Of a stretch of 64,000 nt of DNA, positions 49,368-56,475 are shown one piece after another (the first letter of the stretch is position 1; every line of letters begins with the position of its first letter). This DNA comes from Rhizobiales bacterium GAS188 (GTDB lineage: Bacteria > Pseudomonadota > Alphaproteobacteria > Rhizobiales > Beijerinckiaceae). The stretch covers positions 5,580,001 through 5,644,000 of the forward strand of contig FNSS01000001.1 in the NCBI GenBank assembly GCA_900104855.1. Reading direction: 5' to 3'. The notes beneath the pieces are model-generated. The model was not told the origin of the DNA. It saw only the letters and a program-made list of their open reading frames with translations, and ran no database searches. The translations under genes were made by a program, and so were the position numbers.

Positions 49368-49454
49368 TGCTGGATTGATAGTGGACGATAGCTGCAACGA
49401 GCGACAGGGGTCGCGTGTGGCGGAGCGGGGAGGGCGGCAGATCGGAGGATGAAT

Positions 49455-50024
49455 ATGTCCTGGTACGATTCGGTCGCCCAAGTTTTCTTCGATGCCGTGT
49501 TCGACATCGCACCCATCTCTTGTCATTCATTCACCGTTCCGGACTGCCTCGCCCGATGGATCGACACCAATATGCCGGGCCTAAAGGGCGTCCGACACGT
49601 CTCTTTCTATTGCTGCGACTCCGGTGATCTTCCCATCGGCCCGATCATGAACCTGGTAGGCGCCCGGGGACTCACCCTTGGCGACCATGTCCACATCCGC
49701 CAGGACATCTGTCCGATCGATCAGTGTAACCCCGATAAGGTTCGCCTCCTGCTGCACGAGCTCGTCCATGTCGAGCAGTATCGCGCGGATTCGGGCTTCC
49801 CAGTCAAATACATCGCGGACCATCTACGGCACGGCTATCAGAACAACCCCGCGGAGATCGCCGCCCGTGCCCGTGCGCAGTCGCTGCTATCCGCCTACAT
49901 GGCGGCGAACCCCTGCCATGGACCTCGCAATGGATGTCGAGACCGTCGACGGGCGCAGCCGCCGGGTGGATGCCTGCCACTCCCATCGCGGCTTGAACAC
50001 GATCCCGGGATCCAACGCGCTTGA
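49455..50024 (+). CDS. HExxH zinc-peptidase-like protein
   Basis: 189-residue protein of unrecognised family with a clear zinc-peptidase core LLLHELVHVEQYR near residue 100 and a downstream ADHLRHGYQNNPAEIAARA, where Glu would be the third ligand. This resembles short DUF4157-like proteins. Six Cys lie mostly N-terminal to it. No signal peptide is seen. The ATG at 49455 is spaced 6 bases from GGAGG, better than the adjacent ATG 49449. The C-terminal 35 residues are Arg/Pro/Gly-rich and may not be conserved. It is 1.5 kb from the protease cluster at 51.5 kb but on the other strand. Confidence 0.6.
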   Translation: MSWYDSVAQVFFDAVFDIAPISCHSFTVPDCLARWIDTNMPGLKGVRHVSFYCCDSGDLPIGPIMNLVGARGLTLGDHVHIRQDICPIDQCNPDKVRLLLHELVHVEQYRADSGFPVKYIADHLRHGYQNNPAEIAARARAQSLLSAYMAANPCHGPRNGCRDRRRAQPPGGCLPLPSRLEHDPGIQRA

Positions 50025-51537: not shown

Positions 51538-52086
51538 TCAGGGAAGGCGCCAGCCCGCGAAGGAATGCTCCGGAAGCGAGGCCGCTGGCGGGGATCGTCC
51601 GGTCGTTGCCGCATAGAGTTCCGGCGTCGCGAGGATGACGTGCAAGCACATGCTTTCGTGCTCACCTGCTCCTGCGAGCTCGATCATCAGGCTTTGACGC
51701 GCGAGGTCCGCGGGCGCGCCTGCGACGGATACGCTGTTGCGGTCGATGGCGCGGATGCCGCCCTGCGCCGACACCGCATCGAGGCCGAGCAGGCGGTCGC
51801 CGCCAGCGACTGCACTCAGCTCAGTGACTACGAGAGCGTCCCCATCGACGGTCGTGCCACGCAACGTGAAATCCGGCTCGAGCATCGCGGCGATCCATAT
51901 CTCTTCGCCTTCCGGAAGCGGGACGATGACGCTCAGCTCGGCCGGCCGGCTCTCCAGCACCTGACAGGGCAGGGCGCCTCGGTTTGGCGATCGATCCTTG
52001 CCGCCGGGGTCCGTGACCCGGCGCTGGAAAGATATCGACCAGCCTTTGCCGGAAATCTCGAACGGGCTGGGTCCGGAGTCCGTCAC
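51538..52086 (-). CDS. Unknown protein, last gene of the caspase cluster
   Basis: 182-residue protein I do not recognise. It is mainly beta-type in composition (SVIVPLPEGEEIWIAAMLEPDFTLRGTTVDGDALVVTEL), with no signal peptide or membrane segment, and ends in a Pro/Ser-rich tail. It overlaps the upstream 488-residue gene by 4 bases, so the two are almost certainly expressed together. It may be a partner or regulator of the peptidases encoded just upstream. Confidence 0.6.
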   Translation of the reverse strand: MTDSGPSPFEISGKGWSISFQRRVTDPGGKDRSPNRGALPCQVLESRPAELSVIVPLPEGEEIWIAAMLEPDFTLRGTTVDGDALVVTELSAVAGGDRLLGLDAVSAQGGIRAIDRNSVSVAGAPADLARQSLMIELAGAGEHESMCLHVILATPELYAATTGRSPPAASLPEHSFAGWRLP

Positions 52087-53549
52087 AGTTTCGCAAGCAT
52101 CGCATTCAGAGCCGAACCCGTCACGCCGAGGCTGCGCGTCAGCTCCGCCTTGACGTCGGCGCCGAGGTCGACTCGGGCCGTCGTGCCGGTCGCCCGCGGC
52201 GCCGTCCCCTCCGACGGCGCTCCGAAGCGCTTCTCGAGGATTGACGCCATGCCCGGCAGGTCGGCTGTGGGGTCCTCAGCGGCCCCCACCTCCAGTGATT
52301 CCGCCACTGGCGCTCCGGCCGTCCCGCTGATGCCGCGTCCCAGCCCTGCGGCTTCGCCATGCCCATGGACGAACTCTGCGAGCGCCGCCATCTTCTGCTG
52401 CTGCGCTCGCTTCAGGATCGCGGCCCTCTGTTCGCCTGCTTGCCAAGTGAGCCACGGCGCCGTCGGCAGGACCAGGCTCATGATGCTCGCGGCGATCGAG
52501 CGCTTCGGTACCTTCACCGTCAACGCAACGCTTGCTGCCGTGATCAGGTCCCAGCTGGCGCGCAGCATCGGCGGCCAGCGGAAAGAATGCTCCTTTGACT
52601 TCTCCGCGGCTCCAGGATCGCCGAGCTCCAGCGCGCGGACATCCGGATGCTCGGCGCCGAGCATGGCTCTCACATTGGTCAGCACCTCCTTGCGAATATC
52701 CCGCTTCTCCGGCTCGTCGCGAAGCAGCAGATGTGCCGCCAGGAGCCCGAGAATCGGATCCTGGAACTTCAGCTGGAGAAGCTCCTGATAGACCGCGTCG
52801 GCGATCTTGCGGTCCTGCGTCAGCGCATATCGGGCAAGCACGGCGACCCGCTCGGCCTTCCCGCCTGGATCGAACGCCCCCTTCGACATCAATATAGCAC
52901 CGCCGGCCAGGTCCGCCCGGCGCTCTTCGCCATAATCGCGCATCAACATGAAGATCTGCGTCTGCCATTGCGGCACACCGATGATGATGCGCTCCGATGC
53001 CGTCTTGTCGGGAAGCGTCAGCCGCAACCGATAGGCGCCCGGCACGACGCTGATCAAGCTGCCGGCCGAGACATCGCCTTGCCGGCGCACATCGGCGACA
53101 TCTTCGAGCTTGAGCATCTGGCTCCCGGCCGCATCGTGCAGCGTCAAGCCCGCCATCGGCGCTCCCGCTGCCGTCTCCCCAGGGGTCCAATCGCGCGAGA
53201 AGATGAGGAGCGTCGCGCCTTCGCCCAGCTTCACCGGTTTGCTGACGCTGGCGTCAAGCGCAGCCTGCATATGGTATTCATGAGATCGCGACGTGCCCAT
53301 CAACGGCACGGGCGTGGGGAATTTCAGCTCCTCCGTTTGGAAAGAAATCACCCGGTCCTGGTCGAGCGACACGAGCTGCTCGCTCGTCGCCGACCCGACG
53401 CGGACGCGCACCTTGTAGAGCCCCGCCGGCAGTTCGGCCTTGAGCTGTCCCAGCCCGGTCGCGACGCGGTTCTGGCTGCCGTCCAGCACGGCGATCTCCG
53501 CGACCTTGTCCGGAGTCTCGACGCGCAGCACGTTAGGGGATGGAGACAT
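52083..53549 (-). CDS. Large unknown protein of the caspase cluster
   Basis: 488-residue protein of unknown function. The N-terminal 60 residues resemble a small beta-sandwich (VLRVETPDKVAEIAVLDGSQ, then ELPAGLYKVRVRVG). A second sandwich-like part ends near 200 (VPGAYRLRLTLPDK). An alpha-helical repeat-like segment follows (about 215-320), then a hydrophobic patch and a Gly/Ala/Ser-rich C-terminal third. No export signal. It overlaps the caspase-gene end by 17 bases. ATG 53549 was chosen over 53585 because the latter would lie deeper in that gene. Confidence 0.6.
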   Translation of the reverse strand: MSPSPNVLRVETPDKVAEIAVLDGSQNRVATGLGQLKAELPAGLYKVRVRVGSATSEQLVSLDQDRVISFQTEELKFPTPVPLMGTSRSHEYHMQAALDASVSKPVKLGEGATLLIFSRDWTPGETAAGAPMAGLTLHDAAGSQMLKLEDVADVRRQGDVSAGSLISVVPGAYRLRLTLPDKTASERIIIGVPQWQTQIFMLMRDYGEERRADLAGGAILMSKGAFDPGGKAERVAVLARYALTQDRKIADAVYQELLQLKFQDPILGLLAAHLLLRDEPEKRDIRKEVLTNVRAMLGAEHPDVRALELGDPGAAEKSKEHSFRWPPMLRASWDLITAASVALTVKVPKRSIAASIMSLVLPTAPWLTWQAGEQRAAILKRAQQQKMAALAEFVHGHGEAAGLGRGISGTAGAPVAESLEVGAAEDPTADLPGMASILEKRFGAPSEGTAPRATGTTARVDLGADVKAELTRSLGVTGSALNAMLAKL

Positions 53550-54597
53550 TGACGACTTCTCCGCTGCCATCGGGCCGCAATGCACCGCTCACCTCGAACA
53601 GGCGTGTTCCCTGCCCGGCGACCACCAGCTTGTAAATGCCGATCGCGAGCTGCAAGTTCCAGACCTGCGCTCCGTTGCCCTGCTCGACGACCGCAAAGCT
53701 CGAATCCTCTATATGGGCCTGGAGACCTGCGGCGGACAGAGTGATGCGCACCGGAAATTTGCGGATTGCGGCGGCGACCACGGGCGCTTTCACGATCACG
53801 CATGGATCGGGATCGAAGACATCCGGATCCTGCGCGATGTCGTCATTCTGCAATTCGGTCGGCGACAGCTTGGCCTTCATGTTCTTCTGCAGATAGGCCT
53901 TCAGCTGGGCGCTGGTGATGTCCCCAGTCGCCGGATCGCGCGCCGCGCCGCGCAGCCCTTCCATCAGCGTCGAGGTGAATATGCCGCGCACCTGCCCGGC
54001 ACCGTTCGGCTTCTCCAGGGCGACCTTCCCGTCTTTCGCGGAGAATGCGTAGAAGCGCCACGGATTGCCCCTTCCGGGCATGACGCGCGGCTTGAGAAAA
54101 GGCGGCATCAGCTCGCTGACCCCGACAGAGCTGCGGCAGGCGTCCTGGAACAGCAGGACCTCGTCGAACCAGCCACCCTGGAAGAGCCGGTCCGCCCAAA
54201 GCCTGCCGGCGACGTTGTCCAGCAAGGTGAGGGTCGTATTGGCCATGAGCACCGCCGACCGGTCGTAGGACGGTGCGAAGCCGTGGCCGGAAAAGAACAT
54301 ATACAGCCGCCGGCCGGCCTTCAGGCCGAGGCTCAGCCCATTATTCTCGTTTGCGCATTCGTCGATGTCGGTGAAGAAGCGCTCGATCTGATACCTCGCC
54401 GGTTCGGCATCCTTCACCTTCGGCGAGGCGCCTTCGCGGCTCAAGATCAGCTGCGCCATCGCCGGAGCGACGCCGCCGCCCGCCGGATCCGTCACCCATG
54501 CGTGGAAGTCCAGGGCATCGGCCTCCGCCCCCTGGAGCGAGCCGATCGCCGGATAGCGGTTGATCCCGACGACCAGCGCACGATCAGCCAGCGCCAT
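53533..54597 (-). CDS. C14-family caspase-like peptidase
   Basis: 354-residue protein with a caspase-hemoglobinase fold. The His is in MFFSGHGFAP (His105) and the Cys in LLFQDACRSS (Cys154), with the preceding beta strands typical of metacaspase-type p20 domains; ALVVGINRYP at the N-terminus is also typical. The region after about 270 is a small beta-sandwich (ITLSAAGLQAHIEDSS, then LAIGIYKLVVAG) like the start of the next protein. Cytosolic by appearance. It starts 2 bases after the zinc-peptidase gene. Confidence 0.85.
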   Translation of the reverse strand: MALADRALVVGINRYPAIGSLQGAEADALDFHAWVTDPAGGGVAPAMAQLILSREGASPKVKDAEPARYQIERFFTDIDECANENNGLSLGLKAGRRLYMFFSGHGFAPSYDRSAVLMANTTLTLLDNVAGRLWADRLFQGGWFDEVLLFQDACRSSVGVSELMPPFLKPRVMPGRGNPWRFYAFSAKDGKVALEKPNGAGQVRGIFTSTLMEGLRGAARDPATGDITSAQLKAYLQKNMKAKLSPTELQNDDIAQDPDVFDPDPCVIVKAPVVAAAIRKFPVRITLSAAGLQAHIEDSSFAVVEQGNGAQVWNLQLAIGIYKLVVAGQGTRLFEVSGALRPDGSGEVVNVSIP

Positions 54598-54599
54598 GG

Positions 54600-55298
54600 C
54601 TACGGGTACATCTTCTTGATGAAGGTGCGGTCGACGGGCGACAGGTCAGTGTTCAGGCCGGCCGACTTATTGTCGGTTCTCCAGCTGACCGGCACCGGAT
54701 ACATCATGATCGAGGTGGTATCCAGCGTCGTGCCCTCGATGCTGTTTGCCGGGTACGTGTCGAACATATTGTGCTGGATTGTCGCGGCATCCCATTTGTT
54801 GGGCGGCTTCGACAAATCGGCGATCACGGCCGGCTTGTTCCAACCATTCGCATCCATTCTCTGATGCTCGTGGATCAACCCGATCGCGTGGCCGAACTCG
54901 TGGAGAATGACGCGTCGCGCCTCCGTGTCCTGGACACCCGGCGTCAGCCAGCCGAAATTCATGGTCGGCTGATCCTTGGCGATGCTCTTGCAGGTGGTCC
55001 CGATCACCGACCACGACCCGCTATAGAGAAACGTTATCCTCACATCGCTCTGCGCCGGATCATCCACCCAGCTGAAATTCAAGTTCGCGAGATTCGTCGT
55101 CCATTCGACCGCGAAGCGTTTGACCAGGGCGATCTGTTCGGGGGTGCCGTCCAGGAACGCGATCCTGATCGCGCCGCCTGCCGGCCATTTGGAGGATAGG
55201 AGCAAGCCGGCCTTCGCGGCGGCGTCGCTCGCCGGCGGCGCCTCGAACCAGGCGAAGCACCATTTGTCGCTATTCACGCTGGATTGATCATCGGCCAT
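54600..55298 (-). CDS. Astacin/matrixin-like zinc metallopeptidase
   Basis: 232-residue metzincin. The zinc motif HEFGHAIGLIHEHQRMD (starting at residue 133) has all three His and the astacin-like HEH, and the Met-turn SIMMYP is near 196-201. PTMNFGWLTP and ANLNFSWV...DVRITF before it are the usual strands of the bacterial M12/matrixin group. No signal or pro-peptide is visible, unusual for secreted astacins. The ribosome-binding site and ATG are preceded by a second, nearly identical GGAGG-ATG copy. Confidence 0.87.
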   Translation of the reverse strand: MADDQSSVNSDKWCFAWFEAPPASDAAAKAGLLLSSKWPAGGAIRIAFLDGTPEQIALVKRFAVEWTTNLANLNFSWVDDPAQSDVRITFLYSGSWSVIGTTCKSIAKDQPTMNFGWLTPGVQDTEARRVILHEFGHAIGLIHEHQRMDANGWNKPAVIADLSKPPNKWDAATIQHNMFDTYPANSIEGTTLDTTSIMMYPVPVSWRTDNKSAGLNTDLSPVDRTFIKKMYP

Positions 55299-55328
55299 GA
55301 CTACCTCCTGACATGACTGCCTCCTGTT

Positions 55329-56189
55329 TTACACTGAGATTGCCGCATAGGTGACCTTGTCGCGATCTCCGGCGCGCCAGGCAAAGTTGATTGTCGTGTT
55401 CTTCGCTCCGACGCCGCCGAGGCGGCCCCAATAGGCTGTCGGATAAAGTCCATGGGCAAGGCCGCCGCTCACGACGACGACGACATGCCCGTGAGGGGAG
55501 GGGGTTTGCTGGTCGCTTCCTTTCAGACCGGCGATGACCAGATCCCCATTATCGGCCGCGGCCTTCGCGGCGGGTCCATCGGGGAGCAGCCGCCACGGAT
55601 CGGCGCTGATCTCGCCGACGATGTCGTTGGCGAGGCCGTTCAGCGTGACTCCGAAACGAGCCGACACGGCCTTCACGAAGGCGCTGCAATCGCCCTTATT
55701 GGCGGCCCATAGGTCCTCGCATGCCGAGATGATCTGGGCGGCCTTTCCGACCGTCATCGCGCTCGCGCGCGCCGATCGGGGAATTGGTGCCGCGGGCGCA
55801 AGCTCGCGCGCGAGCGGAGGGAGCTGGATATCCATCGGCCGAACCGTCGGCGCGACCGAATCGGGAATGTAGTAAGGCTCTTCCGGTCGCTTGCGGCGCC
55901 CGTCGAGAAACCAATCGAGGTCAAAGTTCGCCGAACTATTGACCAAGTAGATCAGAACCAGGAAATAGCCGAAGAATCCGACGAAGAGCCCGATGCCGTA
56001 GGCGCCGAAAAGACCGGTGCTCGCCGGAAACAACGCCGTGATGGCGGCGCCCCCGACCACGCCTATGATCGTGGTGAGGTCGCCTATCTGCACATCGCCT
56101 TTGCGGTAGCGATTGATATAGTAGACATACCAGCCGACCAGGGCGCCGAAGCCCGCGGCGCCGAAATACTCAAGGTTGTTCACGAGCAT
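55329..56189 (-). CDS. Membrane-anchored NlpC/P60- or CHAP-like protein
   Basis: 286 residues. Three hydrophobic segments occupy about residues 8-25, 38-54 and 60-83, followed by a Pro-rich linker (110-140). The C-terminal domain has CSAFVKAVSARFGV with Cys168 and HGHVVVVVSGG with His235, the spacing and context of NlpC/P60 or CHAP cysteine hydrolases of peptidoglycan or peptide bonds. If the N-terminus is outside the membrane, the domain would face the cytosol or periplasm; topology cannot be told. It overlaps the next gene upstream by 20 bases. Confidence 0.68.
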   Translation of the reverse strand: MLVNNLEYFGAAGFGALVGWYVYYINRYRKGDVQIGDLTTIIGVVGGAAITALFPASTGLFGAYGIGLFVGFFGYFLVLIYLVNSSANFDLDWFLDGRRKRPEEPYYIPDSVAPTVRPMDIQLPPLARELAPAAPIPRSARASAMTVGKAAQIISACEDLWAANKGDCSAFVKAVSARFGVTLNGLANDIVGEISADPWRLLPDGPAAKAAADNGDLVIAGLKGSDQQTPSPHGHVVVVVSGGLAHGLYPTAYWGRLGGVGAKNTTINFAWRAGDRDKVTYAAISV

Positions 56190-56475
56190 CGCCCATTCCC
56201 CCTCGCTTTCCTGCCGACCTAAGCGCTGCTGGTGCGCATATCGCGGCACCTGCCCCGACCAATATTCCCAAAAAGACCAACCCACCGCGACTTCCCGGAA
56301 TCAGCCACCCGACAGCTTGACCGGCGATGAGCAGAGCCGCGGCGAACACAGCCGGCCGGAAGGACCGGATGGCGAGCGAATACAAGCGCCAGATCGCGAG
56401 CCACCCGACGACCGCTCCGAACGCCAACCCGCCGATCACCACAAGCGGGTCGCCAGTGAAAACCAAAGAGAACAT
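56170..56475 (-). CDS. Small membrane protein, first gene of the caspase cluster
   Basis: 101-residue hydrophobic protein with three likely membrane helices (VVIGGLAFGAVVGWLAIWRLY, AVFAAALLIAGQAVGWLI, and VFLGILVGAGAAICAP). The ATG at 56475 follows a GGGGGAG site 9-10 bases away; an upstream GTG/TTG (56496/56499) is possible. It begins the reverse-strand cluster, with no gene for 0.9 kb upstream. Role unknown: anchor, pore or immunity functions are all conceivable. Confidence 0.6.
   Translation of the reverse strand: MFSLVFTGDPLVVIGGLAFGAVVGWLAIWRLYSLAIRSFRPAVFAAALLIAGQAVGWLIPGSRGGLVFLGILVGAGAAICAPAALRSAGKRGGMGDAREQP

Follow-up and report, generated by a model that had tools for sequence, protein, structure and literature searches.

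The 64,000-nucleotide stretch of the Rhizobiales bacterium GAS188 genome analyzed here (hereafter, the window; C1:5580001-5644000 of a 9.09 Mb genome in 3 contigs) contains a compact cluster of six genes, denoted g1 to g6, that encodes a caspase (g4), a metzincin-type metalloprotease (g3) and four other proteins (Table 1). As stated in a preliminary description of this sequence, the six open reading frames (ORFs) are on the same (minus) strand, and the junctions agree as well: there are overlaps of 20 bases between g1 and g2, 17 bases between g4 and g5, and 4 bases between g5 and g6, and gaps of 30 and 2 bases separate g2 from g3 and g3 from g4, respectively. An alternative, longer g5 reading frame starts with a GTG codon at 53585. 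Pfam assigns g3 to Astacin (31.8 bits, cut-off 22.5) and g4 to Peptidase_C14 (26.8 bits, cut-off 21.4); g1, g5 and g6 have no Pfam matches above the cut-off. The gene for the Cys/His hydrolase-like protein that was originally compared to NlpC/P60 is present (g2), but the label itself is weak (NLPC_P60, 13.9 bits against a cut-off of 23). The combination was not recognized at the outset and, as far as tested, still has no name: no model in PADLOC 2023 or NCBIfam names the set. Recurrence in other genomes is found, but the recurring unit consists of the four genes g3 to g6 and not of all six. We hold, with slightly better than even confidence, that this unit represents a mobile, defense-type cascade of two proteases in which the caspase, together with g5, would unlock a latent metzincin.

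Table 1. Genes and sites of the cluster, with positions given in the window.
Feature	Position	Strand	Description	Basis
g1	56170-56475	minus	small membrane protein, accessory	ORF and sequence
g2	55329-56189	minus	membrane module and NlpC/P60-like Cys/His domain; accessory, not conserved as a whole	
g3	54600-55298	minus	myroilysin-like M12A astacin-type metzincin, predicted zymogen	Pfam Astacin
g3, Cys14 codon	55257-55259	minus	candidate cysteine-switch residue	N-terminal Cys in 11/11 caspase-g5 homologs
g3, Lys29-Ala30 codons	55209-55214	minus	candidate activation cut site	alignment with myroilysin chains
g3, zinc site	54864-54902	minus	HEFGHAIGLIHEH	alignments of relatives
g4	53533-54597	minus	caspase C14, catalytic His105/Cys154, and a further C-terminal region that may be immunoglobulin (Ig)-like	Pfam
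g5	52083-53549	minus	caspase partner protein; two Ig-like beta-sandwich domains and a helical domain predicted	AlphaFold2
g6	51538-52086	minus	function unassigned; predicted beta-rich; often accompanies the metzincin	locus counts

The caspase-g5 core and its partner genes

Related loci were collected from three sources. A search of plasmids with g4 yielded 12 records, all of which were inspected, and in 11 of these a g5 homolog is encoded directly after the caspase or fused to it, the Rhodopseudomonas record (L067) being the only one without g5. A three-row caspase alignment, run against one genome per species, yielded at least 39 loci. According to an iterated g5 profile, 27 of the 39 listed scan loci have g5 beside or fused to the caspase, with tblastn E-values against g4 of 3e-17 or stronger in 26 of them and 2e-7 in L049; the 12 listed loci that lack g5 have E-values of 5e-13 or weaker. 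Searching the host's phylum (398 genomes) with g5 added two more loci. Together with the window, the caspase-g5 set thus comprises at least 41 loci (11+27+2+1), the 41 listed and discussed here, and further loci exist. The counts below are counts of records, not of independent events, with near copies kept (the Flavobacterium rows, the Chitinophaga rows, L014/L068 and L012/L075), and the odds quoted were worked out by hand from these counts. No caspase homolog was found in phage records. The g5-less Rhodopseudomonas plasmid (L067, 3170-11894) encodes two proteins annotated as TIR, two caspases, one of which is part of a protein annotated as a DEAD/DEAH helicase, and a phospholipase D (PLD) protein.

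In the 41 listed loci, window included, the g5 homolog is located downstream of the caspase or fused to it; five natural fusions (L002, L004, L018, L020 and L049) speak for joint action of the two proteins. A metzincin accompanies caspase and g5 in 11 of the 41 loci, a recurrence beyond chance even though these 11 share a common descent, so that the situation considered in the preliminary description, in which homologs of these genes would never be neighbors in other genomes, does not obtain. When up to three genes on each side of the core are considered, the partners are a metzincin in 11 loci, an alpha/beta hydrolase in 19, a second caspase in 7 and other proteins in 4, and none of the 41 loci combines a myroilysin-like metzincin with an alpha/beta hydrolase. 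The metzincin loci are scattered over Acidobacteriota and Alpha-, Beta- and Gammaproteobacteria: besides the window, these are Sinorhizobium terangae (L002), Cupriavidus campinensis (L004), Blastocatellia (L016), Bryobacter (L017), Burkholderiales (L018), Pseudomonas izuensis (L020), Acidobacteria (L024), Alphaproteobacteria (L027), Ruegeria (L029) and a member of another family of the host's order (L058). The metzincin gene is just upstream of the core in 10 of the 11 loci, and downstream on the other strand in L024; in L027, it is fused to a GDSL hydrolase, and L029 is closely similar to L027 over its length. The alpha/beta hydrolases, a group defined by iterating a profile from L019 as the seed, are encoded directly upstream in all 19 loci; L019 itself is an alpha/beta hydrolase by Pfam (26.7 bits, cut-off 20.5), and some other members of the group match no family. 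The second caspase follows the core in 7 loci, all from Chitinophaga. The four remaining partners are a NucA-trypsin protein downstream (L005), a subtilase upstream (L006), a canonical astacin two genes upstream (L023) and a CHAT protein downstream (L049).

Hydrolases are also found in or next to several related loci. In Rhizobium gallicum (L064, 7028-10786), a g5 homolog is fused to trypsin and a NucA nuclease; in Mesorhizobium onobrychidis (L003, 5989-10338), a g5 homolog with the trypsin-like motif GNSGS is annotated as phospholipase D-like. Upstream of alpha/beta hydrolase-caspase-g5 loci, there is a CHAP-like protein with a peptidoglycan-binding domain in one case (L066, 2367-4106) and a phage-type lysozyme in another (L068, 2502-4268).

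On a quick tree of the 41 listed caspases, in which several end branches are long and the details are unsure, the metzincin label needs 2 changes (mean of 9.9 after shuffling; none of 500 shuffles as low), and the 11 caspases from metzincin loci fall in a group of 14 together with L005, L006 and L059 (SH-aLRT 90, not starred). Given the few label changes and the single group, the metzincin-caspase-g5 trio looks old; it is common to different phyla, with the partner seemingly lost or swapped at times. The reverse test, starting from the metzincin, matched 15 plasmid records, of which 13 were examined (H24 and H25 were left out). Four of the 13 have a caspase-domain neighbor. In L002 and L004, g5 is present as well; in L009, the neighbor is a caspase, but nothing matches g5; and in L010, the neighbor is annotated as TIR and also matches the caspase profile (E 4e-28). 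In this last locus, from a Candidatus Thiodictyon plasmid (5878-8345), the myroilysin-like metzincin directly precedes the TIR-annotated protein and has Arg-Gly at the cut position discussed below. For two further metzincins of the host genome, there is no caspase or g5 match within about 3.6 kb around each.

Predicted features of the cluster proteins

The caspase g4 matches the corresponding PADLOC model (E 1.6e-9), and the catalytic His105 and Cys154 assigned to it from the outset are conserved in all 41 listed caspases with a g5 partner. Three acids hold a P1 arginine in MALT1: Asp365, located in the first helix; Asp462, which occupies the position of caspase-3 Gln161; and Glu500 (PMC4626109). 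Acids matching the first and the last of these, Asp27 and Glu195 in g4, are each present in 40 of the 41 listed caspases, the exceptions being L015, with a gap where the gene start is cut short, and L023, with Met, respectively. The counterpart of Asp462 is Asp152, located two residues before Cys154 and present in all 41 caspases; we take MALT1 Asp462 to be at the same distance from its catalytic Cys. Judged by position and motif, as distinct from a direct alignment with MALT1, the g4-type caspases appear to possess a pocket for a basic P1 residue. Against the PDB, a profile of six g4-type caspases retrieved metacaspases, over approximately the first 110 residues, and not MALT1, and the single g4 sequence had no match. 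The C-terminal part of the caspase profile weakly matches the first residues of the g5 homologs in L031 and L039 (E about 0.001), and the C-terminal region of g4 may be Ig-like.

The nearest solved relatives of g3 are myroilysin entries (E 2e-76 with a profile, 8e-44 with the single window sequence). The initial assignment of a metzincin zinc motif and Met-turn holds for g3 and for its relatives at caspase-g5 loci; in the alignments, g3 combines the HExxHxxGxxH zinc site of myroilysin-type enzymes with the Glu after the third His and the Met-turn. All 11 caspase-g5 metzincins contain an N-terminal Cys. A basic residue (Lys or Arg) comes 12-24 residues after this Cys, and the next residue is Ala, Gly or Ile. 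In g3, Lys29 aligns with the Arg of an Arg-Gly pair in the longer myroilysin chains, and Ala30 with the first residue, Gly, of the deposited chain 5zjk, which is taken here as mature myroilysin; a review cites a mature myroilysin structure (Ran et al. 2020) and gives the cysteine switch of this enzyme as proven (PMC9848320). By comparison, g3 is predicted to be a latent zymogen with a cysteine switch in the pro-segment. A basic residue at the aligned P1 position is found in 11 of 11 caspase-g5 metzincins vs 3 of 14 other homologs (L010, L069 and L072; for the split L069 metzincin, only the first piece was counted), a contrast with odds of about 1 in 12,000 if the rows were independent, which they are not. 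The pro-region of the canonical astacin at the Niastella caspase-g5 locus (L023, 7700-8536) contains YEGDI, a sequence consistent with FXGDI, the aspartate-switch motif of animal astacins (PMC9848320). Among NCBIfam models, g3 (54600-55298) matches NF050131 (beta-glucuronidase AbsR1) with E 4e-31, at 108 bits against a cut-off of 650; the name of the model and the metzincin domain of g3 do not fit together.

The AlphaFold2 model of g5, built from 19 sequences (L021 was omitted because of masked residues), has a mean predicted local distance difference test score (pLDDT) of 79.7 and a predicted template modeling score (pTM) of 0.74. It is beta-rich at approximately residues 1-70 and 108-225 and helical at about 229-345, and the segments 398-434 and 445-458 have pLDDT below 50. 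Ig-domain proteins, LAG-3 and NCAM2 among them, account for many of the best Foldseek matches (E about 1e-4); their global TM-scores, on model length, are at most 0.15, values so low that the result defines a fold class for g5 and not a family. A weak match of the g5 sequence profile (E 0.01) is to a gingipain domain that is presumably Ig-like. Altogether, g5 is predicted to consist of two Ig-like domains and a helical domain.

Homologs of g6 are present in 7 of the 11 metzincin loci vs none of the 30 other listed caspase-g5 loci (odds of about 1 in 68,000 if the loci are independent). In a Kovacikia plasmid without g5 (L069, 2802-4895), a g6 homolog adjoins the metzincin that is split over two reading frames. 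Searching with g6 first in the 398 genomes of the host's phylum identified three genomes besides the host's own, all from one family (L076, L077 and L078), in which the g6 homolog follows a helix-turn-helix (HTH)-like protein, as judged by eye, with no metzincin in the surrounding 3.0-3.8 kb. Strict partnership of g6 with the metzincin was dropped on account of these three genomes, and g6 belongs to a wider family. The structural model of g6 is poor (pLDDT 58), and a fold search with this poor model returned nothing below E 0.001. The two upstream genes barely recur. The N-terminal membrane half of g2 aligns with a Pseudomonas izuensis protein (L020, 7376-8194; 44% over aligned columns, profile match) that has a different C-terminal half, and residues 150-287, in the NlpC-like half of g2, share 55% identity with a protein of Rhizobium brockwellii that has another N-terminus and is encoded in a plasmid stretch without other cluster genes (L008); each half was found this one time; for g1, phmmer found no homolog in the related loci searched. 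Thus, g1 and g2 look like local additions to the recurrent four-gene set.

The hydrolytic domains in and around these loci, namely lysozyme, CHAP, GDSL lipase, NucA and trypsin, along with the weak resemblance of the C-terminal domain of g2 to NlpC/P60 enzymes, bring up the alternative of a polymorphic toxin-like or inter-bacterial weapon, in which the hydrolases would be delivered to rival cells and g6 would be the immunity protein. An eCIS-core-like domain protein is encoded about 1.5 kb from the cluster (49449-50024, plus strand; PF13699, 24.4 bits, cut-off 22) and would suit such a role. However, no Pfam delivery domain was found, g3 to g6 contain no membrane or signal-like segment (by a simple hydropathy scan, a signal-peptide predictor not being used), and g6-like proteins also follow HTH-like proteins, with no metzincin in the surrounding 3.0-3.8 kb, in all three other genomes found. 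We consider this the least probable of the alternatives to the cascade and, on the whole, quite unlikely.

A possible protease cascade

The cascade reading can be laid out as follows. The caspase g4 and its Ig-domain partner g5 would constitute the sensing and initiating protease, and g3 would be made as an inactive cytoplasmic zymogen in which Cys14 of the pro-segment blocks the catalytic zinc. Upon a trigger, the caspase would cut g3 after Lys29; the new N-terminus, Ala30, would bury itself and pair with the Glu that follows the third zinc-binding His; and the freed metalloprotease would degrade cell proteins, with the cell being killed or arrested as a result. The role of g6 is probably that of a regulator on the metzincin side (an inhibitor, chaperone or substrate adaptor), and g2 would be a membrane-anchored accessory effector. 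The key step is cleavage of the Lys29-Ala30 bond: because of the pro-segment Cys combined with Lys/Arg, the conserved catalytic dyad and the MALT1-like P1 acids, the caspase probably cuts at this bond and frees the metalloprotease. The cascade reading turns on one lysine in the metzincin pro-segment. The membrane-linked proteolytic cascade proposed in the preliminary description is supported and made specific as far as the cascade goes, but its link to the membrane is weak given how rarely g1 and g2 recur.

Several observations weigh against this scheme. A basic P1 residue is also found outside the caspase-g5 loci (myroilysin, L010, L069 and L072), the canonical astacin of the caspase-g5 locus L023 lacks it, and the pro-segment Cys is present in several homologs without g5 as well, so that this Cys was dropped as a mark of caspase linkage. 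The P1 contrast was noticed after looking at the sequences, the alignment at P1 is uncertain in distant homologs, and the start of the deposited chain may reflect the construct. The 11 metzincin loci are related by descent, as the two label changes indicate, and no clear caspase neighbor is seen in 9 of the 13 metzincin loci examined on plasmids (the one weak match, E 3e-4, lies in L069, on the other strand). Of the six genes, PADLOC recognizes only g4 at E <0.01, and among 10 neighboring genes it recognizes only an ArsR-like regulator, which matches Csa3-type models and is not CRISPR evidence.

The order of events could also be reversed. The metzincin would then act upstream: autolysis or another host protease would activate it, it would process the caspase or g5, and the caspase would be a substrate or a parallel effector. 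Other proteases can use a basic cut site, as illustrated by myroilysin, in which the aligned residue is Arg and for which no need of a caspase is known here, and the 30 of the 41 listed caspase-g5 loci without a myroilysin-like metzincin indicate that the caspase does not depend on g3. The constancy of caspase-g5 in all 41 listed loci, where the metzincin is one of several exchangeable partners, nevertheless places the caspase at the center, and we regard the reversed order as unlikely. A broader version of the caspase-first scheme is one that we advance tentatively and with somewhat less than even confidence: caspase-g5 would be a general initiator platform with exchangeable latent effectors, driving, in this branch, a cascade from a caspase to a cysteine-switch metalloprotease. 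Unlocking of a metalloprotease zymogen by a caspase would also account for many caspase loci with exchangeable hydrolases.

The genomic setting bears on whether the cascade would serve in defense. The set is present in the host genome only among 100 relatives, and of the 398 genomes from its phylum, the g5 search identified it in 3, the host's own included; with the first g5 profile, only the host genome was found in its class (1 of 289), a weak negative given that at most 5 candidates were scored per genome. Several copies are carried by conjugative plasmids or lie near transposases. Combined with the rarity, this points to a mobile gene set. A defense-island setting, raised as a question in the preliminary description, is not indicated by the 10 neighboring genes scanned, of which PADLOC matches only the ArsR-like regulator. 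A programmed cell death or stress proteolysis system unrelated to phages, responding to envelope or other stress, would accommodate the predicted location of g2 in the membrane, the lack of a known phage trigger and the absence of a defense gene other than g4 among the genes scanned with PADLOC, but the patchy distribution, plasmid carriage and transposase neighbors resemble a mobile defense set rather than a housekeeping stress pathway. This interpretation, too, seems unlikely, to much the same extent as the metzincin-first order.

Comparison with known systems

The acids that hold the P1 arginine in the animal paracaspase MALT1 appear to be matched in g4, but the match is by position and motif, and the profile search against solved structures gave metacaspases instead. 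With myroilysin (PDB 5gwd, 5czw and 5zjk), g3 shares the catalytic domain over its whole length, as well as a basic residue followed by a small one where the 5zjk chain starts. Unlike myroilysin, presumably a secreted enzyme, g3 has no signal-like segment (by eye or by hydropathy) and adjoins a caspase, and the pro-segments do not align in sequence.

Caspases encoded beside an alpha/beta hydrolase, and NucA with trypsin, have been described as conflict systems (PMC7159879). The loci analyzed here are similar in that the caspase is next to an exchangeable hydrolase and NucA-trypsin proteins flank some of them (L005, L017 and L058, in addition to the fusion with g5 in L064); no such protein is encoded by the six genes of the window. 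Supplementary tables aside, that article names metzincin once, in the reference list, and has metallopeptidase as a rare effector. The caspase g4 differs from the EACC1-associated caspases (27.1 bits with the NCBIfam EACC1 caspase model, cut-off 140), and no Pfam match to vWA or MoxR, the components of the VMAP ternary systems (PMC7159879), was detected in the six genes and four neighbors scanned. Among the top-ranked titles in literature searches, there was no bacterial caspase-metzincin or caspase-astacin system.

Among the published systems found, Canu comes closest; there, the CanA-CanB complex of a caspase and its partner turns on a co-encoded MBL-fold pro-nuclease and provides antiphage defense (PMC12799240). 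As in Canu, a caspase is encoded here with a partner and a candidate pro-effector, and Canu loci carry Ig-like domains, as predicted here for g5, and likewise vary in their make-up (PMC12799240). The Canu caspase has an Ig-like domain at its C-terminus, and the C-terminal region of g4 may be of this kind. The effector is different: none of the six proteins matches the MBL-fold family of the pro-nuclease CanC, and a narrow scan of 35 of the caspase-g5 loci for the MBL-nuclease motif gave a single match, located in L023 on the opposite strand. With the MBL nuclease absent and g5 and CanB comparable by description only, the set is viewed as working like Canu and is not filed as Canu. If the cascade from caspase to metzincin is real, it would be a bacterial counterpart, built of different enzymes, to the initiator-to-executioner protease steps of animal cell death, and protease-to-protease cascades would join the known caspase-to-nuclease step of Canu in bacterial immunity or cell death.

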